From positions 3,162,001 through 3,226,000 of the forward strand of contig NC_018691.1 of the NCBI RefSeq assembly GCF_000300005.1: a stretch of DNA of 64,000 bases, written 5' to 3'. This stretch comes from Alloalcanivorax dieselolei B5. GTDB lineage: Bacteria; Pseudomonadota; Gammaproteobacteria; Pseudomonadales; Alcanivoracaceae. Each line of letters starts with the position of its first letter. Within the stretch, counting starts at the first letter, position 1. Positions 10,912-42,148 of the stretch are shown piece after piece. Made by a program: the position numbers and the translations under genes. The notes under the pieces were generated by a model that saw only the letters and a list, made by a program, of their open reading frames with translations, had not been told where the DNA came from and searched no databases.

Positions 10912-10984
10912 GTCACTGCTTTTTCGGAAGCCGGTTTATGCCAATAAAGTTCAGCTTGCGAAAAAGGCGGCTGGGGATAAAAAA

Positions 10985-26654: not shown

Positions 26655-28388
26655 TCAGAGATTCACGGCACGACGACGCCGGGCCGCCAGGAACCCAAGC
26701 GCGGAGAGCCACAGCAAAGACAAGGTGCCACCGCCACCACCGCCGGAAGAACCACCGCCGTTGCCGCCGTTATCCACCGGTTCGACGGTAACGGTGACGC
26801 TGGCTTCCACCCGTTCGTCGCCGCCGTCCGTGCACCCCAGGATGTAGGTGAATTCGCCGTCCAGGGGGGGCGTGAGGGATTCGCTGCCTTCGCTGGCTTT
26901 GTTACCGCCCCAGTCGCCATCGCCCGCGCAGTTGTCGGCATTGCTCACCGACCAGGTCAGGGTCGTGCTTTCACCCAGGGTAATGGTTTGTGGATCGGCG
27001 CTGAGTTGAATATCGGCGGTCACCGGTAGCTCGATATCAACGGCAAAAAGGGTGCCATAGCCATCGGCGTCGTTGGTGTTCAAGGCATCGCCGGAATTAC
27101 CGCCGCGCTTAGTAGCGCCGTACAGGGTCTGCATCTGTTCCACTACCGGCCCAGCGGTAAGCCCGACCGGGAAGGCGCCGTCGATTTCCACATCGAATCG
27201 GTGCAGGATCTCGTATTCGTCGTCGCTGTGATTATCGGCTTGTCCGATCATCACCCGGAACAGGACGCCGGCGCCGCTGGGCTCATCTTCCGCCGTCACC
27301 GTGCGCCGGGCGGTGCCGTAAACATGGCCGTCGGCGGCCAGGACCAAAGGCCCCCAGGGCGTGATACCGTCGTCTTGCTCTTCAGCAAAGGTATGCACCA
27401 GCGCGAAGCTGCCTGGCGTGCCGGGTTTAAATCGCCACAGAGCTGTGGTTGTGGTGCCGTACAGCCAGTCGCCGACTTGCACCAGAGCTTGTTGCCCTGA
27501 ATCACTTCCCTTGATTTCCCCTTCCGCCTCTTTGGCGAAGGTATGCAGGATCGTTACCGGCGTGGTGCCATCGGTGGCTACGTCGGACAGGTCGATACTG
27601 AACAGGGTGCCCGCGCTTTCGTCTCCATCGGGGAGCCCTTCCGGATCGCCCGCGCCAGCGGACTGATCGCGTACATTGATACCGTAAAGGGTGCGATTGG
27701 CCTCATCCACCAGCAGGGCCGCCGGATACTGTCCCTTTTTATAAACGGTGCTGTTACCGGAGCCTTCCGCGTAGTTCTCGAATTCCACCAAACGCACCAA
27801 GGTGCCGTCGGCCGCGAGCCGGAACAACCCGTTACCGTTTCTCCCTCCTCCACCGCCGAAATACACGTTGTCGTCGGTGTCCACGGAGAATAGGCCACGC
27901 GGTTCGAACGATGAGCCAAAACCGTCGCTGTCGTCGCCCGGGTCAGCTGGTGTGGCCACGGCGTTCACCGGCACCTCTGCGAAGGTCCAACGAAACACCG
28001 TGGGCTCGGCAGGAAACTGCGGAAAAGAAAATGGATTGGTTCCGAAAATCACATCACCGGTACTATCTTCCACCAATCCCGTATAGAGCCCGCTGGCTCC
28101 CCCTTCGGCCAAGAGGCTGGAGGAGAACTGGGGCACCCCCGCCGCGAAGTCCAGGGCATAGTAGTGCCCGACTGAGTCCGTACTGGCAGGCACTACCCCA
28201 ACCAATGTGCGCGATTCCCTGGCATTCAAATAGATTGGCGGAGAGTGAGGCTGCTGCCCCCCCTCATTGGAAAACACATGCAATACGCGCGGCGCCATAT
28301 CGGCCATCACCGAAGAGGTCATAAACAGTAAGGTCGTACCGAGGCTACTGAGCCAGGGGCGTGCGCCTTGAGAAACGATTCGCGTCAT
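26655..28388 (-). CDS. Secreted propeller-like protein with Ig-like domain and GlyGly-CTERM-type tail
   Basis: About 577 residues. It shows a signal peptide, repeats such as TLYGINVRDQ, WLYGTTTTALWRF, HVYGTARR and TLYGATKRGGNSG with GTLFxxD, an Ig-like segment ADIQLSADPQTITLGESTTL with a Cys pair, and a tail GGGGGGTLSLLWLSALGFLA ending in Arg residues, a classic GlyGly-CTERM signal. It is a paralogue of the gene at 23797-25734. AAGGAAGGAG precedes the ATG. It lies 16 bases from hasR and 145 bases from hasA, so it is probably co-expressed with the receptor. Function unknown. Confidence 0.87.
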   Translation of the reverse strand: MTRIVSQGARPWLSSLGTTLLFMTSSVMADMAPRVLHVFSNEGGQQPHSPPIYLNARESRTLVGVVPASTDSVGHYYALDFAAGVPQFSSSLLAEGGASGLYTGLVEDSTGDVIFGTNPFSFPQFPAEPTVFRWTFAEVPVNAVATPADPGDDSDGFGSSFEPRGLFSVDTDDNVYFGGGGGRNGNGLFRLAADGTLVRLVEFENYAEGSGNSTVYKKGQYPAALLVDEANRTLYGINVRDQSAGAGDPEGLPDGDESAGTLFSIDLSDVATDGTTPVTILHTFAKEAEGEIKGSDSGQQALVQVGDWLYGTTTTALWRFKPGTPGSFALVHTFAEEQDDGITPWGPLVLAADGHVYGTARRTVTAEDEPSGAGVLFRVMIGQADNHSDDEYEILHRFDVEIDGAFPVGLTAGPVVEQMQTLYGATKRGGNSGDALNTNDADGYGTLFAVDIELPVTADIQLSADPQTITLGESTTLTWSVSNADNCAGDGDWGGNKASEGSESLTPPLDGEFTYILGCTDGGDERVEASVTVTVEPVDNGGNGGGSSGGGGGGTLSLLWLSALGFLAARRRRAVNL

Positions 28389-28404
28389 CGAAACACTCCT
28401 TCCT

Positions 28405-30900
28405 TCAAAATTTCAGTGAGACCGTGCCGGTGACGGTGCGGCCCGGCGCGATCCAGTAAGAGAGGCCGTTGAGTTCGGCGTAGTTGCGGTCGCGCAGGTT
28501 GTCCACCGCGAGCCGCAGGGTGAGGCGATCATTGGGCTGGTAGCTGGCCCAGGCGTCGTAGACGGTCCAGTCCACCACGTCTTCGTAGGCGCTGCCGCCG
28601 CGGCCATCGTTGTCTTCGTAGCGGGCCCGGGCACCGAGAGTGAGTTTGCGATCGAGCAGCCGCAGACCGGCGCTCAAGGTGCCTTTCTTCACCGGCGGCA
28701 ACAGATAGAACATGCCGCCGCCATTGGCGTCGCCGATCGTGGTTGGCAGACAATCAGTAAAGCAGCCGAGCGGGTAAGGGTCATAACCGCCCCGGCCCAG
28801 GTCGTGCAGGGTCCGCGTCCAGCTGGCTTCGAGGAAATAGCCGCCGGCGTCGTATTCGGCCTGCCATTCCAAGCCGTAGAAACGCACCTCGTCCCGCAGA
28901 TTGACGAACGCCAGGGATTGGGAAGTGCTGGCTCCAGGGGCAGGCCCAATGACCCGCCCTTGGGTGATGTAGTCCTTGACGCGGGTGTCGAACCAGGCGG
29001 TCTTCATGCGCAGGCGATCACCGTTCTTGAACAAGGATTGCCAGTTGAGATTGGCCCCCACTTCCCAGGTACGAGAACGTTCCGGTTCCAGACCGGGATT
29101 GGGAAAGAACGGAAAGGTATTGCCGATGTGGGCGCCCCACATGATCGACTCGGTGATGGCCGGCGGCCGCACGCCCTGGCCGTAGCTGGCGAACAGTTGC
29201 AGCGGGTTGGCCACCTGCCAGGCGGCTTTCAAAGTCGGCGAGACGAAGCCATCGTGGCGGGCCACGTCGAACTTGCTGTACAAAAGGGTGTAAGGTGGAC
29301 GCACGCCGTCTTCATTTTTATGCCGGCCGACAAACATCTCGCCGTCGCCTTCGAGGCGGAACCAGTCGTAACGCACACCGCCGGTCAGTTCCCAGCCGTC
29401 GTAATGGGCCAGGCGCGCCGTAGTGAAGGCGCTGATCACGGAACGCTCCCCTTCCGGCGTCGGGCCGGAAAACCAATCGGCGCCACGCTCATCGCCGCTG
29501 TTATCCGGCCGGGTCCAGTCGTGGTAGAACTCGCCACCATAGGTTAAGTCCAGAGAGCCGCGCCAATCGCCGACGGGCACCTCCATGCGGTTCACCAGGG
29601 TGCCGCCGACGGTGTTGGTTTCGTAGCGCAGATCAAACTCGCCGTAGTCGTCGTCCGGATCGTCCGGGCGATACTCGTCGTTGCGGGTGCGAGTGTAATA
29701 GAGGCTGGCGTCCAGGTCCCACCAGCGGCTACCGGGGTAGAAGGCGTAGTTGATCAGGAAGGTGTCGGAGTGGATCTGGTTTTCATCGGTGGCGTCACTG
29801 CCGGGCGCAGTATTGCTGCCTTCATCGAAATCCGCTCGCAGGCCGATGTAGCTGAATTTAACGGACTGGTTGTCGGCGAAACGCCAGGTGCTTTTCAGCA
29901 ACGCGGACCACTGCTCCTGACCAGTGAACTGGCTGGTGCCGTGCCAGTAGCCGCCGCTGTTGCCGCCCCGTTCGCCTTTCTTGAACGCGCCCACGTTCTT
30001 GCGGCTCACCGCCGCCATCAGATCCACGTTGTCACTGGCGCGTACGGCGCCGGCGACACTGCCGGAAAAGTGGTAGGCATTGTCACCGGTGGTGGCGTTG
30101 ACGCGCCCGCCCGCCTTTTGCTCCGGCTCGAGCAGATCGTCCACGTCCAGGGTGCGGAAGTTGACCATGCCGCCGATCACCGCCGCGCCGCCGGCGCCGG
30201 AGCTGGGGCCTTTGCTGATATCCACGCCAGCCAGCAATTCCGGATCCACGTACACCTGGCCGTTGCTGCCGTGGCCACTTTGCTGGTAGTTCTGCCGGGT
30301 GCCGTCGATCATCACATTGACGCGGCCGAAATCCTGCAGACCGCGAATATTCACCGACACCCCCGGATCCTGGCGACTTTGCGAGGTATGCACGCCGGGC
30401 ACCGCCGCCAACACATCGGAGGTATTGCGCGGCGGCATCCGGTCGATCTGGTCCCGGGAGATGATCGTCATGGACCCCGGCGTGCGATAGGCCCGCCCGC
30501 GCGGGTCCAGCTCACCGGTGACGGTCACCCGTGGCAAAGAGTTGGCGCCATCGCCGCCCTCCCCACCTTCTCGGCGCAATACATATTGGCCCCGCGCTTC
30601 CGGCTCGGCGCTGAGCCCGGTCCCAAGCAGCAACGCGGCGAAGCCATCCGGCACGGCATAGTGTCCGCGCAGTCCGCGAGTGTGTTTGCCCTCGGTGAGG
30701 CCAGGATCGAAGTACATCACCACTCCGGCTTCCAGCGCGAAGCGATTCAACGCCGGTGCCAGGGCGCCGGCGGGTATCTGGTAGTGTCTTTGCGTCACGG
30801 AGGACGCCTCGGCTTGCGCCCGGGTCTGGCCGGGGCCGCCAAGCAGAAAGACCGCCGCCAGGAGGCCCATGGCGAAGCGGGGTCGGAGACAGCGCTGCAT
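28405..30900 (-). CDS. hasR: TonB-dependent heme/hemophore receptor with STN signalling domain (HasR type)
   Basis: About 831 residues. After a signal peptide, an STN (secretin/TonB N-terminal) domain (YQIPAGALAPALNRFALEAG) is followed by the plug (DVLAAVPGVHTSQS, VNIRGLQDFGRVNVMIDGTR) and a 22-strand barrel ending TVSLKF. In the barrel, GQGVRPP and NPGLEPERS are the FRAP and NPNL boxes of heme receptors, with a His (WGAHIGN) between them where heme receptors carry a heme ligand. The STN domain matches the sigma/anti-sigma pair upstream. ATG at 30900 is chosen over an in-frame TTG. Confidence 0.93.
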   Translation of the reverse strand: MQRCLRPRFAMGLLAAVFLLGGPGQTRAQAEASSVTQRHYQIPAGALAPALNRFALEAGVVMYFDPGLTEGKHTRGLRGHYAVPDGFAALLLGTGLSAEPEARGQYVLRREGGEGGDGANSLPRVTVTGELDPRGRAYRTPGSMTIISRDQIDRMPPRNTSDVLAAVPGVHTSQSRQDPGVSVNIRGLQDFGRVNVMIDGTRQNYQQSGHGSNGQVYVDPELLAGVDISKGPSSGAGGAAVIGGMVNFRTLDVDDLLEPEQKAGGRVNATTGDNAYHFSGSVAGAVRASDNVDLMAAVSRKNVGAFKKGERGGNSGGYWHGTSQFTGQEQWSALLKSTWRFADNQSVKFSYIGLRADFDEGSNTAPGSDATDENQIHSDTFLINYAFYPGSRWWDLDASLYYTRTRNDEYRPDDPDDDYGEFDLRYETNTVGGTLVNRMEVPVGDWRGSLDLTYGGEFYHDWTRPDNSGDERGADWFSGPTPEGERSVISAFTTARLAHYDGWELTGGVRYDWFRLEGDGEMFVGRHKNEDGVRPPYTLLYSKFDVARHDGFVSPTLKAAWQVANPLQLFASYGQGVRPPAITESIMWGAHIGNTFPFFPNPGLEPERSRTWEVGANLNWQSLFKNGDRLRMKTAWFDTRVKDYITQGRVIGPAPGASTSQSLAFVNLRDEVRFYGLEWQAEYDAGGYFLEASWTRTLHDLGRGGYDPYPLGCFTDCLPTTIGDANGGGMFYLLPPVKKGTLSAGLRLLDRKLTLGARARYEDNDGRGGSAYEDVVDWTVYDAWASYQPNDRLTLRLAVDNLRDRNYAELNGLSYWIAPGRTVTGTVSLKF

Positions 30901-31044
30901 TAATATCAATTCCCATTCTCATCCTTGTTCATCTGTGATGACGGGCGAGATCGGGAAAGGGACAGTGATGGGGAAAGAAATTCTGGTCGGACGTCAGACC
31001 TTTTTGCAGGGGCGGTCCGCGGACCGCCATTCACACGCTATGTG

Positions 31045-32016
31045 TCAGCGACGGCCGATCACGGTCAGCCAGCGGGTGTAGTTGGTCACTTGAATCGGCA
31101 GATAATCCGCCAGCAGCGCCAGAGCCTGGTCGGTATCGTCGAGCGGGAAAACGCCGGACACACGCAGCCCCGCCAGTTCCAGATCGTCGAATCGCAACAA
31201 TCCGGGCCGATAACGCGCCAGTTCCTCCAGCACCGCCGTCAAGGGTTGGTCGTCGGCCACCAGACGCCGGTCCAGCCAGGCGGTGGCCAGGCGCACATCG
31301 ACGCCGCGCGGTGATTTGATGATCGTTCCGTCGGTGGCGGTGCGCTGACCCGCATGAGCATCAACACAGGCGTGGCGGGCCGGCGGTGGCGGTGTGGCGG
31401 CACACACCTGCACGCTGGATTCGGTCACCACCACCGCCATGCGCCGGTCACGCAAACTGACGGCGTAACGGGTTCCCAGGGCACGGGCCGACCCCAGGCC
31501 GGTGGCCACCACGAAGGGTCTGTCGGGGTCTGGCGCCACCGTGGCGTAAACGTCGCCATCGCGCAAAATCACCCGACGCTCGTCGCCGTCGTAATCCACA
31601 TCAACGGCGGCGCCGCTGTTCAGTACCAGTGAACTGCCGTCCGGCAAGGTCACCTGACGCTGTTCGCCAACGGCGGCGCGATAATCGGAAGTCAGATTCA
31701 AGGACGCTAGCGGCCACCAGGCCAGGCCCACTCCAAGCAGTCCGGCCAGCGCCAGCAAACTGGTGCGGCGGTTGCGGCGCACCGGCCCCAGTACTTTACC
31801 CAGCACCGGGCCGGCTTCCGGGCGATGCCGCCCGGACACCGGTTCGAGACGATGCCACAGGGATTCGGCGCGCACATAGGCACGCTCGTGACGGGCATCG
31901 GCCCGACGCCAGCGGCGGCAGGCTTCCCGTTCTTCCTCGGTGACGGCCCCGGAGTGCAGAGTGGCGATCCACTCCGCCGCCTCGCGCAAAAAAGGCCCTT
32001 CGTCTCCCTCGGTCAT
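31045..32016 (-). CDS. hasS: FecR family anti-sigma/sigma regulator
   Basis: About 323 residues. A cytoplasmic N-terminal part with EAAEWIATLHSG and ACRRWRRADARHERAY (typical DUF4880 start of FecR proteins), one membrane span (LLALAGLLGVGLAWWPLA), and the periplasmic FecR domain with VGEQRQVTLPDGSSLVLNSG. It would receive the signal from the STN domain of the receptor and control the ECF sigma factor encoded 3 bases upstream. A C-terminal STN-like part (RRLVADDQPLTAVLEELARY) is also visible. Confidence 0.93.
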   Translation of the reverse strand: MTEGDEGPFLREAAEWIATLHSGAVTEEEREACRRWRRADARHERAYVRAESLWHRLEPVSGRHRPEAGPVLGKVLGPVRRNRRTSLLALAGLLGVGLAWWPLASLNLTSDYRAAVGEQRQVTLPDGSSLVLNSGAAVDVDYDGDERRVILRDGDVYATVAPDPDRPFVVATGLGSARALGTRYAVSLRDRRMAVVVTESSVQVCAATPPPPARHACVDAHAGQRTATDGTIIKSPRGVDVRLATAWLDRRLVADDQPLTAVLEELARYRPGLLRFDDLELAGLRVSGVFPLDDTDQALALLADYLPIQVTNYTRWLTVIGRR

Positions 32017-32019
32017 GCT

Positions 32020-32541
32020 TCAATCGGTCTCGTTCAGAGCCAGGCAGTGCAATAACGCCTGCGCCACGTATTTCTTCACCATGCTCACCGATACGCCGAG
32101 CCGTTCGCCGATCTCGGCATGGGACAGTCCGTCCAGACGGCTCATTATAAAGGCCTGACGTGGCTTCGCCGGCAAATCCTCCAACCAGCCCGCCACTTCC
32201 GTGAGCAGTTCCACCACTGCCACCAGTTCCTCGGACGATGGCGCCGAGGCGCAGTCCCCGTACAGCGCCATCCAGGTTTCCAGGTACGCCTGCTCCACCT
32301 TTTTGCGCCGGGCATCGTCGATGATCAGACGACCGGCGATGGTGGTGAGAAAGGCGCGTGGCTCACGCACGCCCTGCAAATCCGAGGAGCTGGTCAGCAC
32401 TCTCACGAAGGTGTCATGGGCCATGTCCGCCGCGCGCTGTGAACAGCCCAGCTTCTTTCTCAACCAACCCAGCAGCCAGCCGTGGTGATCGCTGTACAGC
32501 ACCGCCACCAGATCACGTTTCAGGTAGCTCGTCGCCCCCAT
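32020..32541 (-). CDS. hasI: ECF sigma-70 factor of the FecI/HasI type
   Basis: About 173 residues. Region 2 reads AADMAHDTFVRVLTSSDLQG-like, followed by EPRAFLTTIAGRLIIDDARR, and region 4 carries the helix-turn-helix FIMSRLDGLSHAEIGERLGV then SVSMVKKYVAQALLHC. A GGGGAGGGG lies before the ATG at 32541. A perfect Fur-like box stands about 60 bases upstream. Together with the FecR gene it should switch on hasR and the downstream genes when the receptor is occupied. Confidence 0.94.
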   Translation of the reverse strand: MGATSYLKRDLVAVLYSDHHGWLLGWLRKKLGCSQRAADMAHDTFVRVLTSSSDLQGVREPRAFLTTIAGRLIIDDARRKKVEQAYLETWMALYGDCASAPSSEELVAVVELLTEVAGWLEDLPAKPRQAFIMSRLDGLSHAEIGERLGVSVSMVKKYVAQALLHCLALNETD

Positions 32542-32599
32542 CCGTTCGCCCCTCCCCTGCGGGATTCCGTCGTTGGTACGCTATAGCCAATTCAGAACA

Positions 32600-32614
32600 T
32601 GAGAATAATTCTCA
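32600..32614. promoter_or_regulatory. Fur box
   Basis: TGAGAATAATTCTCA is a perfect 7-1-7 inverted repeat matching the Fur core TGATAATNATTATCA at 13 of 15 positions. It lies just upstream of the ECF sigma gene, so iron should repress the whole signalling cascade. A weaker look-alike, GAGAATGGGAATT, lies directly before the receptor ATG (minus strand, near 30906-30920). Confidence 0.8.
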
Positions 32615-32795
32615 ATTGCTATAAAGGTCAAGTCGCGATCCTTCAGTGCCCCAAAGCAAGGCAATGGCGATTTTCCAAGCGACGGCTTTGCTCTCCTTCC
32701 CGGGGCGGCGGAATCCCTGATGAAACCAGGCCCGGCGCCAGGCGGCCCGAGTCTGGCAATGCAGTGGCACGGTTTCTGCTTGGTGACAGTTTACA

Positions 32796-32843
32796 CCGGG
32801 ACGACCCGGCCGGCCCTTGCCGGAACCATGCTGGACGGCCAGC
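32796..32843 (+). ncRNA. Guanidine-II (mini-ykkC) riboswitch
   Basis: Two small hairpins with the class-defining ACGR loops: CCGGG-ACGA-CCCGG at 32796-32809 and GCTGG-ACGG-CCAGC at 32830-32843. Each loop is closed as GG-ACGR-CC, and the 20-base linker is inside the usual range. A third possible hairpin (CCGGC...GCCGG) lies in the linker. The ribosome site AAGGAGG of the oxygenase gene follows 22 bases later. Guanidine-II RNAs bind guanidinium and turn on downstream genes, typically by freeing the ribosome site. Not tested by covariance search. Confidence 0.85.
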
Positions 32844-32879
32844 CGCTTTTTCTGCCCTTGAAGAAAAGGAGGCGTCGTC

Positions 32880-33953
32880 ATGTATTCATCCCGCCACTAT
32901 TCATCCCGCCACACCGCGTTTCAATCCATCCCGGTGGTCGATATCACCGGCCTGCGCGCCGATCACCCGGCGACACGCCAGGCCACCGCCGCCAACCTTG
33001 GCCAGGCGGCCCGGGAGGCCGGTTTTTTCTACCTCTCGGGTCACGGTATTCCCACACCGCTGATCGAACGTTTACAGGCCCGGACCCGCGACTACTTCGC
33101 CCAACCGCTGGCGGAAAAGATGCGCGATTACATCGGCCAGTCGCACAACCACAGCGGCTATGTGCCGGAGGGCGAGGAGCAATTCTACGGCGGTAAAGTG
33201 GATAAAAAGGAGGCCTATGACGTGGGCTTCGACCTTACCCGCGAGCCGACCAAATGGCCCATGGTCGGCGCCAATCAATGGCCCTCCTTGCCCGGCTTCA
33301 AAGAGGATGTGAAGGCCTACTACGATGCGGCCCTGGCGCTGGGGCAACACCTGTTTCGCGGTTTTGCCCTGGCACTGGGCCTGCCGGAAACCACGTTCAC
33401 CGATCAGATCACCACGCCGCCCAGCCAGTTGCGGCTGATCCACTACCCGTTCGATCCGGATACGCCGGCGGACCGTCCCGGCATAGGCGCCCACACCGAC
33501 TATGAGTGTTTCACGTTACTGCTGCCCACCGCGCCGGGGCTGGAAGTGATGAACGGCGCCGGCGAGTGGATCGACGTGCCGGTGAAACCCGGCTGCTTCG
33601 TGGTCAATATCGGCGACATGATGGAAGTGCTCAGCAACGGCGCTTTCGTCGCCACCTCCCATCGGGTGCGCAAGGTGGCGGAGGAGCGCTACTCTTTTCC
33701 GTTGTTCTGCAGTTGCGACTACGACACCGTGATCGCCCCGGTTTTGCCGCCGGCGGAGGGGGTCACCAACGACCGCTATCAACCGGTTGTCTGTGGCGAG
33801 CACCTGTATGCGCAAACCATTCAGACCTTCCGCTATCTGCGTGATCAATGGCAGGCAGGCACCCTCGCCTTGCCGGATGCGGCCCGGGCGCTGGCGTCGT
33901 TCGGGCGGCTGGCGGACAATGACGAAGCGGAGCGGCCCCATGCATCTGAATGA
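32880..33953 (+). CDS. Isopenicillin N synthase-like Fe(II)/2-oxoglutarate oxygenase
   Basis: About 357 residues. The DIOX_N part begins with IPVVDITGL and EAGFFYLSGHGIP; the catalytic core has the iron ligands His205 and Asp207 in GAHTDYE and His261 in TSHRV, and the co-substrate pair Arg270-x-Ser272 in ERYSFPLF. An AAAGGAGG precedes the ATG. It follows directly after the guanidine-II hairpins, so guanidine probably induces it. A guanidino compound or its relative is the likely substrate, oxidised at a C-H bond. Overlaps the next gene by 14 bases. Confidence 0.93.
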   Translation: MYSSRHYSSRHTAFQSIPVVDITGLRADHPATRQATAANLGQAAREAGFFYLSGHGIPTPLIERLQARTRDYFAQPLAEKMRDYIGQSHNHSGYVPEGEEQFYGGKVDKKEAYDVGFDLTREPTKWPMVGANQWPSLPGFKEDVKAYYDAALALGQHLFRGFALALGLPETTFTDQITTPPSQLRLIHYPFDPDTPADRPGIGAHTDYECFTLLLPTAPGLEVMNGAGEWIDVPVKPGCFVVNIGDMMEVLSNGAFVATSHRVRKVAEERYSFPLFCSCDYDTVIAPVLPPAEGVTNDRYQPVVCGEHLYAQTIQTFRYLRDQWQAGTLALPDAARALASFGRLADNDEAERPHASE

Positions 33954-34872
33954 ATGGCTCCAACGCTTCCCCACGGTCCCGCAAAGATCGGTACCAGACT
34001 GGATGCTCGGCTGCTTTCGGCGCCACTGTATCAGTTTCGCCAATGGCGAGAGCGATACCCGCACCCGGGTGTTCTGGATACAAAGCCGCAATTTCACTGT
34101 CGACCTGCGTCTGCCCGAAACAGATGCCTTGCTTTCCGCCGCCCCCTTCTCCGATCAGAAGCCCTCACAACAAAACGCCCGTGCCAACAGCGAAGGCTGG
34201 TTCGCCCACACTCACTGGGATGGCCAGCAGCTGAGCTGGTCCGGCGGAAGCGACTTTCAGCTGCACACGCGCTGGCCGGAACCGGCGCTCTTGCAGCGGG
34301 TGGGGAACTGCCTGATCGAAACGGCACCCAGCGGCATCTATATGGAGGACTGGCGCCTGCAACCATCAGACGCCGGACCACTGGTGGGGCTGGAACTGAT
34401 CGAGGAGCGGAACCTGGAGACTGATCAGGTCCTGCATCGCGGCGGCGGCGTGATCATTTGCGGCGAGTACGCCGCTCTGGTACGCGGCCGCGCCGAGAGC
34501 ATCGATGACGCTCGCCCCAATGCCCTGCGCCAGCGCCTGCTGTCCGGCATCCGCGATAGTGACGCCTTGCTGGCATTCGAAACCTCCCTTGCCCACGGCA
34601 ACCTGACCGACGGCTTCACCATCACCCACACTTTGCAACCGGAACGTCAAGGTCAGCCGCTGATGCCGCTGGACGGATTTGAACCCCACGCCAGTGGTGA
34701 ACTGTGGCAACGGCTTGAAATCGAAGGGCGCAACAGCCTGCGACGTTATCGCGTTGACAGTGCCGAAGCCCGCTTTGTTTTTTCGCTGGCCACCCCCGCC
34801 GACGACAACGCCCGCGCCTGGTTCCAACAGGAAAGCGACACCCTTACCCGCTACACCCGAACGCTTCGTTAA
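33940..34872 (+). CDS. Protein of unknown function in the guanidine-riboswitch operon
   Basis: About 310 residues, no signal peptide and no membrane segment. I do not recognise the family. It looks rich in beta strands, with a repeated style of GWFAHTHWDGQQLSWSGG and EDWRLQPSDAGPLVGLELIE, then GGGVIICGEYAALVRGRAES and ITHTLQPERQGQ. That could be a double lipocalin-like or beta-barrel fold, but this is a guess. ATG at 33940 overlaps the oxygenase stop by 14 bases, so the two proteins are made together. It probably acts on, binds or relays the product of the oxygenase. Confidence 0.85.
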   Translation: MHLNEWLQRFPTVPQRSVPDWMLGCFRRHCISFANGESDTRTRVFWIQSRNFTVDLRLPETDALLSAAPFSDQKPSQQNARANSEGWFAHTHWDGQQLSWSGGSDFQLHTRWPEPALLQRVGNCLIETAPSGIYMEDWRLQPSDAGPLVGLELIEERNLETDQVLHRGGGVIICGEYAALVRGRAESIDDARPNALRQRLLSGIRDSDALLAFETSLAHGNLTDGFTITHTLQPERQGQPLMPLDGFEPHASGELWQRLEIEGRNSLRRYRVDSAEARFVFSLATPADDNARAWFQQESDTLTRYTRTLR

Positions 34873-34897
34873 CCCAACCCCATCTGGAGGTGCCTTC

Positions 34898-35989
34898 ATG
34901 GGAAAACTGATGACAGGTAAACCAACGCGAACCTGGCTGCATGCACTGTTGCTCATCGCCGGGCTGGCATTGTTATGGCCGCTACAGGCCAACGCCCAGC
35001 AAACCCGCTTCAAAGTGGCCTGGTCGATTTACTCCGGCTGGATGCCCTGGGGTTATGCCGCCGAACACGGCATTGTCGATAAATGGGCGGACAAGTACGG
35101 CATCGACATCGAGATGGTGCAGTTCAATGACTACATCGAATCAATCAACCAGTACACCGCCGGTGACTTCGATGCCTGCACCATGACCAATATGGATGCC
35201 CTCACCCTGCCCGCCGCCAGCGGTGTCGATACCACCGCTTTCATTCTCGGCGATTATTCCGACGGCAACGATGCCATCGTATTGAAGAACGGCACCACCA
35301 TGCGGGACATCAAGGGCCGCCGTGTCAATCTGGTGGAGCTGTCCGTGTCCCACTACCTGCTGGCGCGGGCGCTGGATATGCACGGTCTGTCGGAGAAGGA
35401 CGTCACCGTGGTGAACACCTCCGACGCCGACGCGGCCTCCTCCTTCCTGACTCGCGATGTCACCGCCGCCGCGGCCTGGAACCCGCAACTGAGCCGTATC
35501 ATGGCGCAATCCCCGGATGCGGTTCAGGTGTTTACCTCAAAACAGATTCCGGGTGAGATCATCGACATGATGGCGGCGAAAACCGAAGTGCTGAAAGACA
35601 ATCCGGCGCTGGCGAAGGCACTCACGGGCGCCTGGTTCGAGACCCTGGCGCTGATGCGATCCGACACCGATGCCGCCGCCGACGCGCGTGCCGAGATGGC
35701 CCGTGATTCCGGCACCGACCTGGCCGGCTATGACGCTCAGTTGGCGCTGACGCATATCTTTTACAGCCCGGCCGAGGCCCATCGTTTCACCGCTGCCCCC
35801 GGTCTGCGCGAGACCATGAACAAAGTGCGGCGGTTCTCCTTCGAGAAAGGCCTGCTGGGAGAAAGCACTCCCAGCCCCGATGCCATCGGCATGGCCTTTG
35901 ACGACGGCAGCCGGCTCGGCGACCAGCACAACGTAAAACTGCGCTTTGACGCCCGCTACGTGAAACTGGCGGCGGACGGTGGGCTATGA
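34898..35989 (+). CDS. ABC transporter substrate-binding protein of the urea-carboxylase-region type
   Basis: About 363 residues with a signal peptide ending in ANAQQ. The mature start FKVAWSIYSGWMPWGYAAEH and GDFDACTMTNMDALTLPAAS, then VNLVELSVSHYLLARALD, match the TIGR03427-like family of NMT1/TauA-fold receptors encoded near urea or guanidine carboxylase genes. A CTGGAGG stands before the ATG. No permease or ATPase gene follows, so it is an orphan receptor that must work with components elsewhere. It shares the operon led by the guanidine-II element. Confidence 0.88.
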   Translation: MGKLMTGKPTRTWLHALLLIAGLALLWPLQANAQQTRFKVAWSIYSGWMPWGYAAEHGIVDKWADKYGIDIEMVQFNDYIESINQYTAGDFDACTMTNMDALTLPAASGVDTTAFILGDYSDGNDAIVLKNGTTMRDIKGRRVNLVELSVSHYLLARALDMHGLSEKDVTVVNTSDADAASSFLTRDVTAAAAWNPQLSRIMAQSPDAVQVFTSKQIPGEIIDMMAAKTEVLKDNPALAKALTGAWFETLALMRSDTDAAADARAEMARDSGTDLAGYDAQLALTHIFYSPAEAHRFTAAPGLRETMNKVRRFSFEKGLLGESTPSPDAIGMAFDDGSRLGDQHNVKLRFDARYVKLAADGGL

Positions 35990-36114
35990 AAGCCGTCCGA
36001 AGGCAGCCCGATGTCCCACTGTTCGCCGGCTCGCTTACACGTAACACGCTGGCATACCAAACCTCAATCTTGCTTACCGACCATGGAGACATGAATTCAG
36101 AGGTCACCGCAAGA

Positions 36115-36192
36115 CCGCTGTAGGAGCTAGCCCTGCTGGCGAAGAGGGCACAAAGCCAAAAAAATCGCCAGCAGGGCTAGCTCCTACAGCGG
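36115..36192. repeat. REP-like palindromic element with perfect 28-base arms
   Basis: The arm starting CCGCTGTAGGAGCTAG (36115-36142) is fully repeated in inverse at 36165-36192, with a 22-base A-rich loop. Similar TGTAGGAGC palindromes are dispersed in pseudomonad and related genomes. It lies between the riboswitch operon and the converging enoyl-CoA hydratase gene and may end transcription from both sides. The rest of 35990-36285 shows no gene. Confidence 0.85.
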
Positions 36193-36285
36193 CTTCGTAA
36201 GGCGCTCCTTAGCATCGATCAGTATGTGGCGGACCTGCGCCCTCTCCACACAGGAAAAGACCACGATGCCCTCACATCCAGCGAA

Positions 36286-37068
36286 TCAGCCTCCTTTAAA
36301 GTGAGGCCGGCGTTTTTCCAGAAAGGCGCTGGCGCCTTCGACGAAGTCCTCGGAGGCGAACGTTTCCGCCGCGGTTTCCCGCTCCACCCGCAGACGCTCC
36401 ACCAGATCCGCCGGCAGCGCGGTGAACAGCCGCTTGATCGTGGCCTGAGCCAACGGCGGTCCGGCGGCGAGACGGCGGGCGTGTTTCAGCGCAGTTTCCA
36501 GAGCCGCGCCCTGCTCCGCGCGCACGTCAGCGAGACCGATATGAATTGCCTCGTCCAGTGACACTTCCTCACCGGTGAGCAGAATCCGGCGCGCCCGGCC
36601 AGCACCCACACGAAAAGGCAGTGCCCACCAAAGGGCGCCATCCGGCGCCGCGCCGACACGAATCTGAGCGGCGCAGAAACGGGCACCCTCCGCGGCCACC
36701 ATCAAATCACAACAGGCGGCCAGCCCCAGACCGGCACCGAAAGCGGGACCTTCCACCGCCGCTATATACAGCTTTTCCGACGTCAATATGCGTTGCAGCA
36801 AGGGGCCGCCCGCTTCCAGACGCTGGCGGATTTTCTCCACGTCACGAATGCGGCGCAGCGCATCCAGGTTACCACCGGCGGAGAACACTCCCCCCGCTCC
36901 GGTCAACACCATGACGCGCAGGCTGTCGTCGTTTTCAAACCGCTCCATGGCCTCCAACAGCCCCTCACGCACTCCAGGCGCGCCCATGGCGTTTCGCATG
37001 GCGTAGGCGTTGATGGTGACCACCGCCACCGCCTCCCGGGTTTCCATCAATACCGCTTGTTCCGTCAT
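36286..37068 (-). CDS. Enoyl-CoA hydratase/isomerase family protein
   Basis: About 260 residues, normal crotonase size. The oxyanion-hole segments VLTGAGGVFSAGGNL and AAVEGPAFGAGLGLAACCDLMVA are present, as is RVGAAPDGALWWALP where the catalytic acids of true hydratases lie: here the second position carries Asp rather than the usual Glu. ATG at 37068. It is the last gene of the minus-strand catabolic run, 4 bases after the acyl-CoA dehydrogenase. Confidence 0.91.
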   Translation of the reverse strand: MTEQAVLMETREAVAVVTINAYAMRNAMGAPGVREGLLEAMERFENDDSLRVMVLTGAGGVFSAGGNLDALRRIRDVEKIRQRLEAGGPLLQRILTSEKLYIAAVEGPAFGAGLGLAACCDLMVAAEGARFCAAQIRVGAAPDGALWWALPFRVGAGRARRILLTGEEVSLDEAIHIGLADVRAEQGAALETALKHARRLAAGPPLAQATIKRLFTALPADLVERLRVERETAAETFASEDFVEGASAFLEKRRPHFKGG

Positions 37069-37072
37069 CGTC

Positions 37073-38182
37073 TCAGGCCTCCATACGTTCGAGATAAAGT
37101 CGTCCGTTATGCGTGGCGTCACCGAGCAACCGGCTTAGTGCGTTCACGCGCAACAGATAACGGCCGATGCCGAGTTCCAGAGTCATGCCGATGCCACCGT
37201 GCATCTGAATCGCCTCCCGGCATACGCGGTCACCCACCGGTACCGCCAGCGCCATTGCCGCGAAGGCGTCGGCGTGGGCCGGTTCGTGGGTCAGACTTTG
37301 TGCCGCACCGGACACCAGCGAGCGCAGCATTTCCAGATCCGCATGCAGATCGCTGGCGCGATGTTGCAAAGCCTGGAAGCGAGCCAATTTAGTGCCGAAC
37401 TGCTCCCGCAGTCGCAGATAATCCAGGGTCTGCTCCAGGGCTCCCTCGCACGCGCCCAGGGTTTCCGCCGCCGCAGCCAGGGCACCATGGGCCAGCGCCG
37501 CATCCAGTGCCGCCCGTGCCTCCGCGCCGCGGGCCAGCACTGCCTCTTCCGGTAGCAAAACGCCATTGAAGGTGAGCGTCGCCAGGCTGCTGCCATCAAA
37601 GGCCGCGTAGGAAGCCACCGCCATTCCCTCCGTCTCCGGCGCCAGCAGCACCAGCGCGAGCTCACCATTCAATCGGCAGGACACGATGAACGCGTCGACA
37701 CCTGCGGCATCCATCACCGCTCTTTTACGGCCATTCAACACATAGCCCTGCTGGCATCGCTGACCCTCGATTGCCGTGTGATGGTGGTCATACCCGGCCC
37801 CATCTTCCAATGTGGCCAGTGTCAAAGCTGCGTCGCCGGTGGCTAACCGTCGCAGCCATTGATCCCGCAAGGCACTCGACGGCGAGCACGTCAACGCGGT
37901 GCCGCCCAGGATCAACGAGGAGAGAAAAGGCGAGCGCAGCTGGTCCCGGCCAAAACGACGGCACAACACCGTCAGCTCCACCGGCCCCATACCACCACCG
38001 CCGTACTCCTCGGGCAACGCGATCCCCAACAGACCCAACTCGGCCAGTTCATGCCACAAGGGCAGGCGGGCCACGTCGGCGGACAGCAGCGCCTGATCCC
38101 GGCGCGGGTCCCATTGTTTTTCCAGCAACCGTGCCACCGTGTCTTCGATGAGTTGCTGCTCTTCGGTCAACATAAACTCCAT
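37073..38182 (-). CDS. Acyl-CoA dehydrogenase, second (beta-like) subunit
   Basis: About 369 residues. The N-terminal helical part EEQQLIEDTVARLLEKQWDP and LGIALPEEYGGGGMGPVEL is typical, and the end IQMHGGIGMTLELGIGRYLL belongs to the C-terminal helical domain. Compared with the neighbour it lacks the usual central YSEPxAGSD FAD/substrate loop. Such shorter partner subunits occur in heterotetrameric dehydrogenases of steroid side-chain breakdown. The stop of the next gene lies within 9 bases of this start. Confidence 0.88.
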   Translation of the reverse strand: MEFMLTEEQQLIEDTVARLLEKQWDPRRDQALLSADVARLPLWHELAELGLLGIALPEEYGGGGMGPVELTVLCRRFGRDQLRSPFLSSLILGGTALTCSPSSALRDQWLRRLATGDAALTLATLEDGAGYDHHHTAIEGQRCQQGYVLNGRKRAVMDAAGVDAFIVSCRLNGELALVLLAPETEGMAVASYAAFDGSSLATLTFNGVLLPEEAVLARGAEARAALDAALAHGALAAAAETLGACEGALEQTLDYLRLREQFGTKLARFQALQHRASDLHADLEMLRSLVSGAAQSLTHEPAHADAFAAMALAVPVGDRVCREAIQMHGGIGMTLELGIGRYLLRVNALSRLLGDATHNGRLYLERMEA

Positions 38183-38190
38183 GGGATACC

Positions 38191-39384
38191 TCACAGATCG
38201 AGCACGTGCTTGGCGATGATATTGCGCTGCACTTCATTGGAGCCGGCGGCGATGGCCGGCCCTCGCAGGTAGTAGCGGGACTCCGCCACATAGCGGGCGT
38301 CGCCGCCGTCGTTCAACAGGTCCCGGGCCAAGTCGTCATAGGCGGCATCGGCGGCGAGCGCATCAACACCTGCGATGTCCATGATCGCTTCATCCACCGC
38401 CTGGTTAATGGCCACCCCTTTCAGGTTGAGTGATGAGGCGAAGACACCGATACGGCCATCGCGAATCAGCATTTCCAGACCACGGCGGGTAGCGAATTCG
38501 AGAGCTTTGACCTGCACCGCCACTTGAGCGATGCGCGCGTTGAGATCCGCTCGTTGATACAAGGTGCCAGAGGCATCCTGGTTGGTGTTGGCCAGCGCCA
38601 GCAGACGGCCCAGTTTGCGGCGCGCCTCGGCGTGACGAGAGGTGGCCAGTCGCTCGTGCTCGAGCAAGGCCTTGGCCGTGGTCCAGCCGGTGTTTTCCTC
38701 GCCGATACGCTGGTCCACCGGCACTTTGACATCTTCCAGCAACACCTGATTGAGCAAGTGCGCGCCATAGAAATGGTGGATCGGCTCGACACCGACCCCT
38801 TCACTGCGCATATCCAGCAGCAGGAAGGAAATACCTTTCTGCTTCTTGGCTTCGGGGTCGGTGCGCACCAGACAGAACATCCAGTCGGCATAGTGGGCAT
38901 AGCTGGTCCAGATCTTGCCACCGTTGACGCGGTAGTAATCCCCTTCACGAACCGCACGGGTCCGCAGCGCCGCCAGATCCGACCCCGCGGAAGGCTCCGA
39001 ATAGCCCTGGCACCACCATTGATCCATGTTCAAAGCGCCGGGCAGAAAGCGCTCCTTCTGCTCCTCGGTACCGTATTCCAGCAAGATCGGCCCCAGCATG
39101 CGGGTATTGAAAGGCGGTATGGAAGGCGCTCCGGCCAGTGCCATCTCTTCCTCGAAGACAAATCGCTTTTGCAGACTCCAGTCCGTGCCCCCCCAGCGTT
39201 TCGGCCAATGCACCGCACCCCAGCCCCGGGCAACCAGCTTGCGTTGCCAGGCGATCGTCTCGTCACGGCTGACGTCCCTGCCCTGTTCCACTTTCAGGCG
39301 AATGGACTCCGGCACTTCACTGGCCACGAACTCGCGAATCTCCTGTCGGAATCGGATTTCCTCCGATCGGCTCGGATCCGTCAT
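38191..39384 (-). CDS. Acyl-CoA dehydrogenase, first (alpha-like) subunit
   Basis: About 397 residues. WWCQGYSEPSAGSDLAALRT is the classic FAD-binding signature, KIWTSYAHYADWMFCLVRTD the next strand region, and the C-terminus GSNEVQRNIIAKHVLDL the conserved end. It starts at the ATG at 39384 after AGGAG. With the adjacent shorter gene it probably forms an alpha2beta2 enzyme that puts a 2,3 double bond into an acyl-CoA; the adjacent enoyl-CoA hydratase would take the next step. Confidence 0.92.
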   Translation of the reverse strand: MTDPSRSEEIRFRQEIREFVASEVPESIRLKVEQGRDVSRDETIAWQRKLVARGWGAVHWPKRWGGTDWSLQKRFVFEEEMALAGAPSIPPFNTRMLGPILLEYGTEEQKERFLPGALNMDQWWCQGYSEPSAGSDLAALRTRAVREGDYYRVNGGKIWTSYAHYADWMFCLVRTDPEAKKQKGISFLLLDMRSEGVGVEPIHHFYGAHLLNQVLLEDVKVPVDQRIGEENTGWTTAKALLEHERLATSRHAEARRKLGRLLALANTNQDASGTLYQRADLNARIAQVAVQVKALEFATRRGLEMLIRDGRIGVFASSLNLKGVAINQAVDEAIMDIAGVDALAADAAYDDLARDLLNDGGDARYVAESRYYLRGPAIAAGSNEVQRNIIAKHVLDL

Positions 39385-39535
39385 CTTCAAGCACTCCTGT
39401 TGATGGTTTACTGGTTTTGGGGCGACTGAGCCGACCCCGTCTGCTCTGGAGGGTTAAAAAATTGCCGGGAGCAATTTTTAACGTTGCTCCACGAAGGCCC
39501 GAAGGGTGACCGCCACGGACGGTGGTCATAAAAAA

Positions 39536-39556
39536 GCGCCGGCCAAAGGCCGGCGC
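39536..39556 (-). terminator. Rho-independent terminator after the porin gene
   Basis: A perfect 9-bp GC stem (GCGCCGGCC with GGCCGGCGC, AAA loop) is followed on the minus strand by TTTTTAT; a T-run on the other side would make it work on the plus strand too. It ends transcripts of the porin gene 150 bases downstream of its stop. The rest of 39385-39707 shows no gene and should hold the promoter of the acyl-CoA dehydrogenase genes. Confidence 0.88.
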
Positions 39557-39707
39557 AAAAAAGGACACGGCAGGCGGTGTCACAATCGACACTACATTCG
39601 ACACCACTCCGGCGATGGGGAGAGCATCCGCCCCGGAGAGTCTCGACACCGCCCGGACAACGTGGAGGATGTCCGGAGAACACACCGCATCCAGTGAACA
39701 ACGGCAT

Positions 39708-40844
39708 TCAGAACTTCAACTGGGCGCCGATGGACAGAGCCCACGGATCGCGACCGGCCAACGTGCCCACTTTGTCGCCGTGGGCATAATCCACGCCACG
39801 GTAGGCGGCGTTGTCGCCGTTTTTAGTCACCGTGTACATGGCATGCAGCAATACCGAATCACTGAGGGAATGGAATACACCAACGCTGTACTGATCCGCT
39901 TCATCGTCTCCAGCCTCCGACTCTTCAGCGTGGTTCCACTGCGCTGCCAGATTCCAACGTGGTGCCACCGTATATTGCGCTTGCAATCCATAGGCTTCGC
40001 GATCGAGAGACGCGAAATCATCCGGACTGATATCCTCGTAGATAGCACCAAGAGTCAAAGCCGAGAATTTATATTTGGCGAACACGCGCCAAGCATCAAG
40101 GCTCCCCCTGGTCGCAAAATCGGAGTAATGAATATAGGCACTGCTCAACTGCAGTCCGCCTCCCTTCCAGTCCAACCAAATGCTTGAACTGTCGCGATCA
40201 TTATCATCCGCGCTATTAACAGAGCCGGCCTGATCAGCCGCATACTGCAAAGCCACGTTGACACCAGCCAGGCGGAACTTCCAGTTCAGGCTGTTAGCGC
40301 CGAACAAATCCAGTCGGCCGCCGGCGCCCGCCGAGGGTGCGCCGAGAATAGCGTGGGAGTCAGCCACCGTGGTGTTGAAATAACCGAGATACGACACTCC
40401 CAGGTTCTTGAATGGCGTGTTGATGCGTCCCACCAGGAAAGTGCCCACTGGTGTACCCAATCCCAGAAAGCTGTCACGGGTAGTCCAGACGTCATTACCG
40501 TCGGTGTCATCCATGTCAACCTGCTGCTCGTACTGCCAGAGGAACGTATAATCCTCGTTGTAAGGCACCTCACCGCGAAAGCCAATCATCGTGGTGTTGC
40601 TGGAGACACCGATTCCGCCTTCGGAAAGCAGCGGCGAGGTGTCCGCTTGCGCATCACTGACATCGGAGTCCACGTAGTCCACCGACATGCGCAGCGCCCC
40701 ATACAACTCCATCTTCTTTTTAATCGCCTGTTCCGGATGAATAACGTCTTCCAGAACTTGAATATCCGCAGCCTGTGCTGACAGTGGCAGCAAAGCCATC
40801 AGCAGACCGGAGCCTGCCGCAGTGAAAAGAGGACGGATTGTCAT
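39708..40844 (-). CDS. Outer-membrane porin, general porin type
   Basis: About 378 residues with a signal peptide ending SAQAAD. MELYGALRMSVDYVDSD, TTMIGFRGE, LVGRINTPFKNLG and the last residues ALSIGAQLKF (terminal Phe) match the family and the porin at 5813. GAGGAGAAACTA precedes the ATG. A strong terminator follows, so its mRNA ends before the acyl-CoA dehydrogenase genes. It likely serves the nearby TAXI-TRAP uptake pathway. Confidence 0.91.
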   Translation of the reverse strand: MTIRPLFTAAGSGLLMALLPLSAQAADIQVLEDVIHPEQAIKKKMELYGALRMSVDYVDSDVSDAQADTSPLLSEGGIGVSSNTTMIGFRGEVPYNEDYTFLWQYEQQVDMDDTDGNDVWTTRDSFLGLGTPVGTFLVGRINTPFKNLGVSYLGYFNTTVADSHAILGAPSAGAGGRLDLFGANSLNWKFRLAGVNVALQYAADQAGSVNSADDNDRDSSSIWLDWKGGGLQLSSAYIHYSDFATRGSLDAWRVFAKYKFSALTLGAIYEDISPDDFASLDREAYGLQAQYTVAPRWNLAAQWNHAEESEAGDDEADQYSVGVFHSLSDSVLLHAMYTVTKNGDNAAYRGVDYAHGDKVGTLAGRDPWALSIGAQLKF

Positions 40845-40900
40845 TAGTTTCTCCTCGAATCGTTTTTTGTTGTTTCATTAGTACGGGTCAGAACCCGGAG

Positions 40901-42148
40901 TTATCTCCCGTTCAGTCGCGTCGCCACCGAACGATAGATTTGCGCGGAGACAAAAGACGGAGAGGCCTCCGCTAGTTGTTCCAGAATTTCCGCCTTCAGG
41001 GCGCGGGCACGAGCTCCGATTTCGTCCTGGCTCCGCTCCGGAGACAGCAGATCCAGTACATGCAAAGCCAGTTGCGGCTGGCCTTCCTCCCGCTTGCGCC
41101 GTGCCACCGCCAGCACCTGTTCGGGGTCACTGATTGCCTCGCGTAGCGCGGCCGCCACCGCATCAGGCTCCCCCGGATGCAGTTGGGTGGCATTGCGGTC
41201 CCACCAGCCGTTCTCCGAGCGCCAGATATCGCGCACGATGTACTCCGGCATCCCGTAGCTTGGCTTCATCAACGGATGGCCAAAGATCTCATCCGGGTAG
41301 GCGATGTCGTGCAGGATCTCCGCTTCGGTCATACCGCGATTCATTCGCTTCACGGTTTCCTCTCGCAGATAGCGCAAAGCCTTGATGGTGAGGGCCATCG
41401 CTTCACGAACCGCTTCCCGGCCTTCGATCGGCTTGCCGAATTCGGGAATCAGCATTTCCGGCTCCAGCGCCAGCAGCTTTTCCATGGTTTCCGCCCAGCG
41501 CACCGGATCACGCAGCGTGCGCAGCGGCGTGCCGATATTGGGAATGGATTTGATGAAGGCCGGGCCGGCATAAAGGATCCTTTCCTCCGGCAACCACAAC
41601 GCCATGGCGTCATCGGTTTCCGAAGGCGATTCCAGAATCTCCACCTGACGATCTCCACCCTCGATGACATAGCGTTCGCGGAAGGTGACATCCGGATAGG
41701 TGAACCATTTTTGCGGCGCGGTTTCCGGAAATTGGGAATTGAACTGCAGACCATTGAGATGCGCCTGCAAGCCCCAGGTCTCCTGGTAGCGGTCATAGCG
41801 ACGCGGCAGGTTGGCCTGAGCCACCATTTTCGGCCGCGGGTGACCGCGCTCGGCGGCGTCCGCCAGCCAGCTGTGAGCACCGTGGTTGTAACCTAAATGG
41901 CCGTGACTATAGACAATCGCCAGCACCGGTTTATCGGTAAGCTGGCGAATGTGTTCGATCATCGACCGGGTGATCTTGCCGCCGGGGCCGGAGTCAGTGA
42001 CCACCACGCCATTAGCGGTTTCCACCACCACACTGTTGCCCTGCCCTCCGAGCAAATGGACACCGGGAGCGATCGTCTTGAGATCCTTGTTGGCGAGCAG
42101 AAATTCGCCCAGGATCGGCGATTCCTGCTTGTTGCTGTTGCCCGTCAT
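40901..42148 (-). CDS. Alkylsulfatase-like metallo-beta-lactamase-fold protein with a degenerate metal site
   Basis: About 415 residues. The fold is clear from VVVETANGVVVTDSGPGG and IVYSHGHLGYNHGAHSW, and the C-terminal helical part resembles alkylsulfatase dimerisation domains (WWDRNATQLHPGEPDA). The HxHxDH signature reads HGHLGY, so the Asp and second His of the second metal site are missing, while the paralogue at 50256 keeps HGHLDH. The GGH-like TDDAMALWLPEERILYAGPA strand follows. CAGGAG lies before the ATG. It may be a one-metal enzyme or no longer a hydrolase. Confidence 0.88.
   Translation of the reverse strand: MTGNSNKQESPILGEFLLANKDLKTIAPGVHLLGGQGNSVVVETANGVVVTDSGPGGKITRSMIEHIRQLTDKPVLAIVYSHGHLGYNHGAHSWLADAAERGHPRPKMVAQANLPRRYDRYQETWGLQAHLNGLQFNSQFPETAPQKWFTYPDVTFRERYVIEGGDRQVEILESPSETDDAMALWLPEERILYAGPAFIKSIPNIGTPLRTLRDPVRWAETMEKLLALEPEMLIPEFGKPIEGREAVREAMALTIKALRYLREETVKRMNRGMTEAEILHDIAYPDEIFGHPLMKPSYGMPEYIVRDIWRSENGWWDRNATQLHPGEPDAVAAALREAISDPEQVLAVARRKREEGQPQLALHVLDLLSPERSQDEIGARARALKAEILEQLAEASPSFVSAQIYRSVATRLNGR

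Follow-up and report, generated by a model that had tools for sequence, protein, structure and literature searches.

What is a pair of guanidine-II-like hairpins doing in front of genes for an oxygenase, a protein of no recognised family and a periplasmic receptor? The question is raised by a window of 64,000 nucleotides in the genome of Alloalcanivorax dieselolei B5 (contig NC_018691.1, positions 3,162,001 to 3,226,000 of the forward strand; coordinates below count from the first letter of this stretch), in which a sequence-only reading had marked such a group and suggested an oxidative route for guanidine or a guanidino compound. What the present analysis demonstrates is that the parts are present, can be identified, are conserved and occur together. 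The suggested route survives in outline with the roles of the compounds revised, as methylguanidine is now the expected substrate and guanidine the expected product. Judged by homology, the group is very probably a horizontally gained cassette for methylguanidine demethylation, fitted with a guanidine-II riboswitch and supplying guanidine as food.

The chemistry has a precedent in Vreelandella boliviensis, where, according to the parts of Sinn et al. (2025; PMC12508155) available to us, MgdH is a 2-oxoglutarate (2OG) oxygenase that hydroxylates methylguanidine, MgdL is a lyase that splits N-(hydroxymethyl)guanidine and needs Asp49 and Arg51, and the two together turn methylguanidine into guanidine and formaldehyde. 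The first gene of the window's trio (32880..33953, plus strand; 357 residues) encodes an Fe(II)/2OG oxygenase, as had been read from the letters, with the Pfam domains PF14226 (DIOX_N) and PF03171 (2OG-FeII_Oxy), and is expected to be a methylguanidine hydroxylase. Its product is 57% identical over 345 residues, with long conserved runs, to the MgdH of a Vreelandella-type locus (L122), used here as a stand-in for the V. boliviensis strain, to which it is closely related, two of four primer-derived sequences of PMC12508155 being matched exactly. The second gene (33940..34872, plus strand) overlaps the first by 14 bp, and its 310-residue product matches nothing in Pfam or NCBIfam at E ≤0.001; to that extent it is of no recognised family, but an experimentally studied remote relative does exist. 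Profile comparison with Vreelandella-type MgdL gave 97.6% probability (E 2.6e-12, 212 columns), and on this and the residues described below the protein is a remote relative of MgdL that retains the catalytic Asp and Arg, with N-(hydroxymethyl)guanidine lyase as its expected activity.

Loci for comparison were gathered by this MgdL-like protein and not by the RNA. It occurs in 12 of 293 order-level and 5 of 369 class-level genomes (the own genome being counted in each, and the others at class level being 25-33% identical), and at 68 loci in the named genome collection. The 71 loci used comprise the window, those 68, L023 and L026; dropped as weak or of another subtype were L018 (the same place as L030 and L114), L019, L020, L031, L032 and L035-L037, and as repeats L022, L024, L025 and L027-L029, while 20 further listed loci were also left out, among which only L030 was checked for a guanidine-II element before mgdH. 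The mgdH gene lies directly 5' of mgdL in 68 of the 71, the exceptions being L043, L071 and L077, the last of which starts at a contig end. The columns of Asp49 and Arg51, occupied by D55 and R57 in the window protein and by D and R at exactly 49 and 51 in the MgdL of L122, are kept in all 71 rows, and twelve residues (G24, R28, D39, V44, W46, Q48, D55, R57, W100, E127, Y134 and E136) are invariant over 55 rows from three subtypes. In the oxygenase, H205, D207, H261 and R270 are the same in every one of the 67 filled rows; going by the 2OG-oxygenase motif (HxD...H and R), we take the first three to be putative Fe ligands and R270 to be the 2OG arginine. A third MgdH/MgdL-like pair is found in L114-L119 (family of G073), followed by a gene for an ATP-binding cassette (ABC) ATPase; its MgdL matches the Vreelandella type at E 2e-25, its MgdH is about 40-45% identical to that of the window, and it possibly demethylates another guanidino compound.

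An AlphaFold2 model of the 310-residue protein (mean predicted local distance difference test score, pLDDT, 95.0; predicted template modelling score, pTM, 0.92) is confident and consists mostly of strands, which is compatible with the beta-barrel of PMC12508155, where the substrate site lies inside the barrel. A sequence search of the PDB with the protein returned nothing at E ≤1, and Foldseek found no PDB match to the model at E ≤0.001, the top rows being mostly sliding clamps with template modelling scores of about 0.1; a lipocalin-like protein appeared at E 7.7e-3, above that threshold.

The third gene (34898..35989, plus strand; 363 residues) encodes a periplasmic receptor of family TIGR03427 (526.7 bits; curated cut-off 333.9), probably for methylguanidine or guanidine. 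It had been called an orphan, and for its surroundings the description holds, as no adjoining permease or ATPase was seen by eye in the open reading frames of 28000-42000; the genome as a whole, however, has a guanidine carboxylase (gca-type) operon with both, and the window receptor is the second of its family. The one other TIGR03427 receptor listed in the genome (530.2 bits; at about L021:12923-13906, minus strand) is the first gene of this operon (locus L021), about 1.9 Mb away, whose order is receptor, permease, ATPase, CgdB, CgdA and Gca, with a guanidine-I riboswitch in front (89.9 bits, before the receptor gene) and a guanidine-II riboswitch before gca (39.3 bits; aptamer at L021:9814-9864, minus strand). 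Besides the ABC permease and ATPase, the families represented are, in the order of those three genes, TIGR03425 (341 bits), TIGR03424 (334 bits) and the urea carboxylase family TIGR02712 (1871 bits), and an allophanate hydrolase (AtzF, TIGR02713) is encoded elsewhere in the genome (785.1 bits). TIGR02712, TIGR03424, TIGR03425 and TIGR02713 alone do not separate guanidine from urea; the naming of the two DUF1989 proteins as CgdA and CgdB is our own reading from the riboswitches, and it is likewise the guanidine riboswitches before the genes that point to guanidine, not urea, as the substrate of the Gca pathway.

In a tree of 69 receptors, made by a quick method without bootstrap and omitting hits of <40% identity, of <250 residues or with a stop (L103-L105 were not taken), the 33 receptors that follow mgdL fall on one side of a branch (support of 96 in the Shimodaira-Hasegawa-like approximate likelihood ratio test, SH-aLRT), separate from the other 36, of which 24 belong to gca operons and 12 to a third group. 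This third clade lies upstream of a permease in Pseudomonas loci (L074, L079, L081, L084, L086-L089, L092, L096, L098 and L102) that carry additional guanidine-I motifs, so arranged that two receptors and three guanidine-I motifs surround one gca operon. CgdA is present in 31 of the 32 other genomes with the trio, at 65-81% identity. In four of these 32 (L040, L044 of Pseudomonas saliphila, L050 and L057) the receptor after mgdL is the sole TIGR03427 receptor at E ≤1e-60, and the neighbouring gca operon encodes a permease and an ATPase without a receptor of its own, so that, most simply, the mgdL-linked receptor serves that importer; the remaining 28 genomes have two to four such receptors. 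By extension from those four loci, the window receptor would use the importer of the gca operon.

Could the pair act on some other methylated guanidino compound, such as N,N-dimethylguanidine, a methylated biguanide or a creatine-derived compound? The window-type MgdL is longer than the Vreelandella type (310 against 237 residues) and only 21-26% identical to nine rows of it, which would fit a larger hydroxylated intermediate, and the family has evidently diversified, as the third pair with its ABC ATPase illustrates. Moreover, in V. boliviensis MgdH also accepts N,N-dimethylguanidine, although, in the portions of the study available (PMC12508155), neither MgdL nor the guanidine-II RNA responds to it. 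The last point counts against such a substrate where a guanidine-II RNA is linked to the genes, as do the identity and long conserved runs shared by the two MgdH proteins and the invariance of the catalytic and core MgdL residues across subtypes. On balance we regard another methylated substrate as unlikely. Guanidine itself as the substrate of the oxygenase was rejected, O2 being used only with methyl- and dimethylguanidine in the assays available from PMC12508155.

A second possibility is that the oxygenase hydroxylates arginine or homoarginine, like the ethylene-forming enzyme or the plant 2-ODD-C23, and thus makes guanidine instead of feeding on methylguanidine. Its best solved-structure match is indeed named an ethylene/succinate-forming enzyme, and such enzymes release guanidine from arginine (PMC12186494). 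The oxygenase is, however, much closer to MgdH, it is accompanied by an uptake receptor and catabolic genes, and a lyase-like gene follows it in 68 of 71 loci, whereas the amino-acid hemiaminals formed by such enzymes decay unaided (PMC12508155); we therefore hold this explanation to be very improbable.

If the genes serve to demethylate methylguanidine, is the RNA in front of them a real guanidine-II (mini-ykkC) riboswitch? The aptamer (32793..32846, plus strand) was assigned by RF01068, by a model built without the window and by comparative loci. Just as the sequence-only reading had described, hairpin 1 (CCGGG-ACGA-CCCGG, 32796-32809) and hairpin 2 (GCTGG-ACGG-CCAGC, 32830-32843) are separated by 20 nt and precede the ribosome site of the oxygenase gene, whose Shine-Dalgarno sequence AAGGAGG was read at about 32866-32872 (plus strand), with the ATG at 32880. 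The site thus has two hairpins with ACGR loops, G-C loop closure, a short linker and a ribosome site downstream. RF01068 matches 32793-32843 over the full length of the model, with 26.5 bits (E 0.0019 in a 401-nt search), which lies under the gathering score of 32; because of this, nothing appears in the default Rfam scan of the whole window. Genome-wide, the window site ranks third among 13 listed RF01068 hits, after two that exceed the cut-off (39.3 and 32.7 bits) and ahead of one at 18.9. A covariance model of 37 aptamers from other genomes, 36 of them upstream of mgdH and one (L043) upstream of mgdL, gave the window aptamer 48.1 bits (E 1.1e-9 in 86.6 kb searched), the second-best site in the window having only 11.6 bits. 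These 37 were taken from 46 distinct aptamers, with the window and L092 excluded and nine with other linkers omitted; in their alignment 97.8% of cells are paired and both-side changes occur at 5 of 11 pairs.

The same arrangement recurs across the sampled loci. When the two loops may be as much as 110 nt apart, 67 of 68 loci have an ACGR hairpin pair in the 250 nt that precede mgdH; dinucleotide shuffling gave such a pair in 8 of 6800 sequences, and in none of 100 for the window itself. The linker and stem rule was loosened after the sequences of six extra loci had been inspected and was then run on all loci and shuffles, and the count of 67 depends on the loosened form; the stricter rule (18-60 nt, stems of at least 4 pairs) is positive in 62 of the 71 loci, namely 61 of the 68 with mgdH and L043. 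Thus a survey of genomes, which had been proposed as a test, finds the gene pair of the window's subtype nearly always with a guanidine riboswitch. At the Rfam threshold none of the 21 distinct mgdH-linked aptamers scanned reaches the gathering score (the window being included, and L024 being the same place as L101), which shows that a scan at that threshold overlooks the mgdH-linked guanidine-II group. A hairpin pair also stands directly 5' of mgdL in L043 (9893-9956, the gene at 10001-10939), where a lyase occurs without the hydroxylase; no mgdH was found within this 20.9-kb locus, which a gca operon adjoins.

How the aptamer would act on translation is less evident. In the best fold of the free window RNA hairpin 2 is opened and its GACGGC paired to a GUCGUC between ribosome site and start codon (z -3.15), and the Shine-Dalgarno sequence is predicted to be mostly paired; to force both hairpins costs 7.6 kcal/mol. 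When the aptamer was forced in 42 loci (from 46 aptamers, four being dropped in which the ribosome site was not recognised by pattern), the ribosome site became less paired in 22 and more paired in 4, the mean moving from 0.80 to 0.72. A conserved pairing of hairpin 2 with the Shine-Dalgarno sequence as the off-state is not supported, lying near shuffle level over the 42 loci.

Several observations weigh against a riboswitch-controlled methylguanidine cassette and have to be set beside those in its favour. The BLASTP alignment with the MgdL of L122 spans just 23 residues (E 4e-4), which makes it less certain for MgdL than for MgdH that the substrate is shared. In the window, little of the Shine-Dalgarno sequence is released when the aptamer is forced (paired 0.85 before and 0.82 after), while the start codon goes from 0.34 to 0.68; with other limits the Shine-Dalgarno value goes from 0.80 to 0.64. 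Complementarity between hairpin 2 and the Shine-Dalgarno sequence is not clearly above shuffles, with a rank of ≤0.1 in 7 of 42 loci. One mgdH-mgdL pair of the 68, in a Burkholderiales metagenome record (L059:8946-10942), has no recognised guanidine-II pair, L030 of the third subtype has none upstream of its oxygenase, and CgdA was not found in one trio genome, a metagenome assembly of 3.2 Mb (L042). Lastly, the window aptamer falls short of the Rfam gathering score, so that the covariance check proposed with the sequence-only reading formally went against it; this shortfall is outweighed because the comparative evidence, from the leave-out model and the 67 of 68 loci, supports the aptamer. 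That the hairpins arose by chance or have decayed and that the genes stand outside riboswitch control, as this score, the better energy of the free RNA without both hairpins together and an expression platform not conserved by simple tests might suggest, is scarcely credible and was rejected in view of the loci-to-shuffle comparison, the leave-out model, the pair covariation and a sub-cut-off score that is usual for the mgdH-linked group. The guanidine-II identity of the hairpin pair is thereby confirmed by comparison, and guanidine binding is predicted.

Taken together, the parts of the methylguanidine cassette suggest the following course of events. Guanidine or methylguanidine in the cytoplasm would bind the guanidine-II RNA and raise translation of mgdH, and that of mgdL and the receptor gene would presumably rise too, through the overlap and the operon structure. 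The receptor would bring methylguanidine, perhaps guanidine too, to the ABC importer of the distant gca-type operon. By analogy with V. boliviensis, MgdH would hydroxylate methylguanidine and MgdL would split the hydroxylated product into guanidine and formaldehyde, after which guanidine could be carboxylated and hydrolysed by Gca, CgdAB and AtzF.

The aptamers themselves fall into two kinds. Counting outward from the loop of hairpin 2, the third base pair is U-A in 60 of the 61 tabulated aptamers of the mgdH-linked group and U-G in the remaining one, and it is G-C in all 25 gca-linked aptamers, a distinction that holds even where both kinds share one locus; loop 2 is ACGA in 49 of the 61 and ACGG in all 25. 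The 61 are the strict-rule aptamers, including the window and L043 with L092 left out, the 25 come from 28 gca loci, and both counts are inflated by near-identical Pseudomonas loci; six loose-rule aptamers likewise have the U-A pair by eye. The third-pair difference may reflect common descent, tuning or ligand preference. By sequence pattern, a guanidine-I motif was found within 600 nt upstream of mgdH on the same strand in none of the 68 mgdH loci, and somewhere in 27 of 28 gca loci (L021 of the own genome among them). In the portions of PMC12508155 available, the V. boliviensis guanidine-II RNA that precedes gca shows equal binding of guanidine and methylguanidine, whereas the guanidine-I RNA showed no methylguanidine binding in the range tested; the distribution of the motifs is in line with this. 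One may go further and suppose, though we do so tentatively and with more doubt than conviction, that the mgdH-linked RNAs are a distinct subtype acting as methylguanidine sensor, that a dedicated methylguanidine receptor alternates with a guanidine receptor on one shared ABC importer, and that guanidine-I keeps the guanidine operon, the two riboswitch classes splitting two related nutrients.

The flanks bear on the history of the locus. The mgdL gene is present in one of 46 genomes of the family, the own genome, and the right flank was found in six of ten same-genus genomes, of which three were inspected. In these three, alignment of the flanks (91-96%) reaches 32635 on the left and resumes at 36264, and in place of the trio there is about 0.24-0.27 kb of other sequence; by eye, left-flank similarity continues to about 32670, and the cassette absent from the equivalent place thus extends over approximately 32670..36263. 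Given the empty site in three relatives, gain of this block (about 3.6 kb) in the present genome is more likely than its repeated loss. In G+C the three genes (0.621) are not conspicuous, the window having 0.61 and the neighbours 0.652 and 0.63. Just 3' of the receptor gene, at 36115-36192, lies an inverted repeat resembling a repetitive extragenic palindrome, whose two 28-base arms match perfectly (CCGCTGTAGGAGCTAGCCCTGCTGGCGA and its complement); the same intergenic spot in relatives (L145, L147) holds other sequence. On the other side the cassette adjoins genes on the minus strand (28405-32541) for a FecI-like sigma factor, a FecR-like regulator and a TonB-dependent heme-receptor-family protein, so that it sits between this iron-uptake block and acyl-CoA genes.

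Among open-licence papers, as covered by titles and abstract starts, MgdH and MgdL are described only in PMC12508155, and no description of the stand-alone trio was found there, supplements and subscription papers such as the original guanidine-II gene lists being outside that scope. As far as the text available to us goes, a small-RNA survey of Alcanivorax dieselolei B-5 (PMC9788540) places guanidine-I ahead of the gene for a urea-type receptor and gives guanidine-II solely ahead of a SugE-like gene; the present genome carries both features, the former at L021 and the latter at L002 with a SugE-family SMR protein, and if the genome is the same one, the survey missed the mgdH-linked site. Should the proposed function hold, methylguanidine use would extend beyond the two halophile genera named in the available text of PMC12508155 to Pseudomonas, Stutzerimonas, Gilvimarinus, Haliea, Marinobacter, Microbulbifer, Variovorax, Thalassolituus and others, and methylguanidine would then seem to be a widespread nutrient. 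Its uptake could be explained by a second receptor working with the guanidine importer, and with guanidine-I before gca-type operons and guanidine-II before mgdH the meaning of their differing ligand selectivity becomes directly testable.

How, then, does the cassette compare with known systems? Like other guanidine-II elements of RF01068, its aptamer has two ACGR-loop hairpins just 5' of the ribosome-binding site, and it differs in scoring below the gathering cut-off and in the U-A or U-G third pair of its group. Like other TIGR03427 receptors, its receptor gives a full-length match far above the cut-off, and it belongs to a clade apart from those of gca-type operons. The gene families of the guanidine carboxylase pathway (gca, cgdAB, atzF) are present in the same genome with guanidine-I and guanidine-II elements, outside the window. 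With the MgdH/MgdL system of V. boliviensis the window shares the succession of oxygenase and lyase, the catalytic Asp and Arg of the lyase, the linkage to a guanidine riboswitch and the expected supply to the guanidine-carboxylase pathway. As described in the available parts of PMC12508155, which mentions the genera Vreelandella and Salinisphaera and places the pair within the gca operon, the V. boliviensis genes stand between gca and atzF in an operon with a guanidine-I riboswitch, an internal guanidine-II riboswitch and one ABC receptor, whereas the window has a separate cassette with its own guanidine-II element, a second receptor for the genome and a lyase that is longer and remotely related. 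Relative to that account, what looks new here is the stand-alone cassette, the dedicated receptor clade, the long MgdL subtype and the placing of guanidine-II instead of guanidine-I before mgdH.

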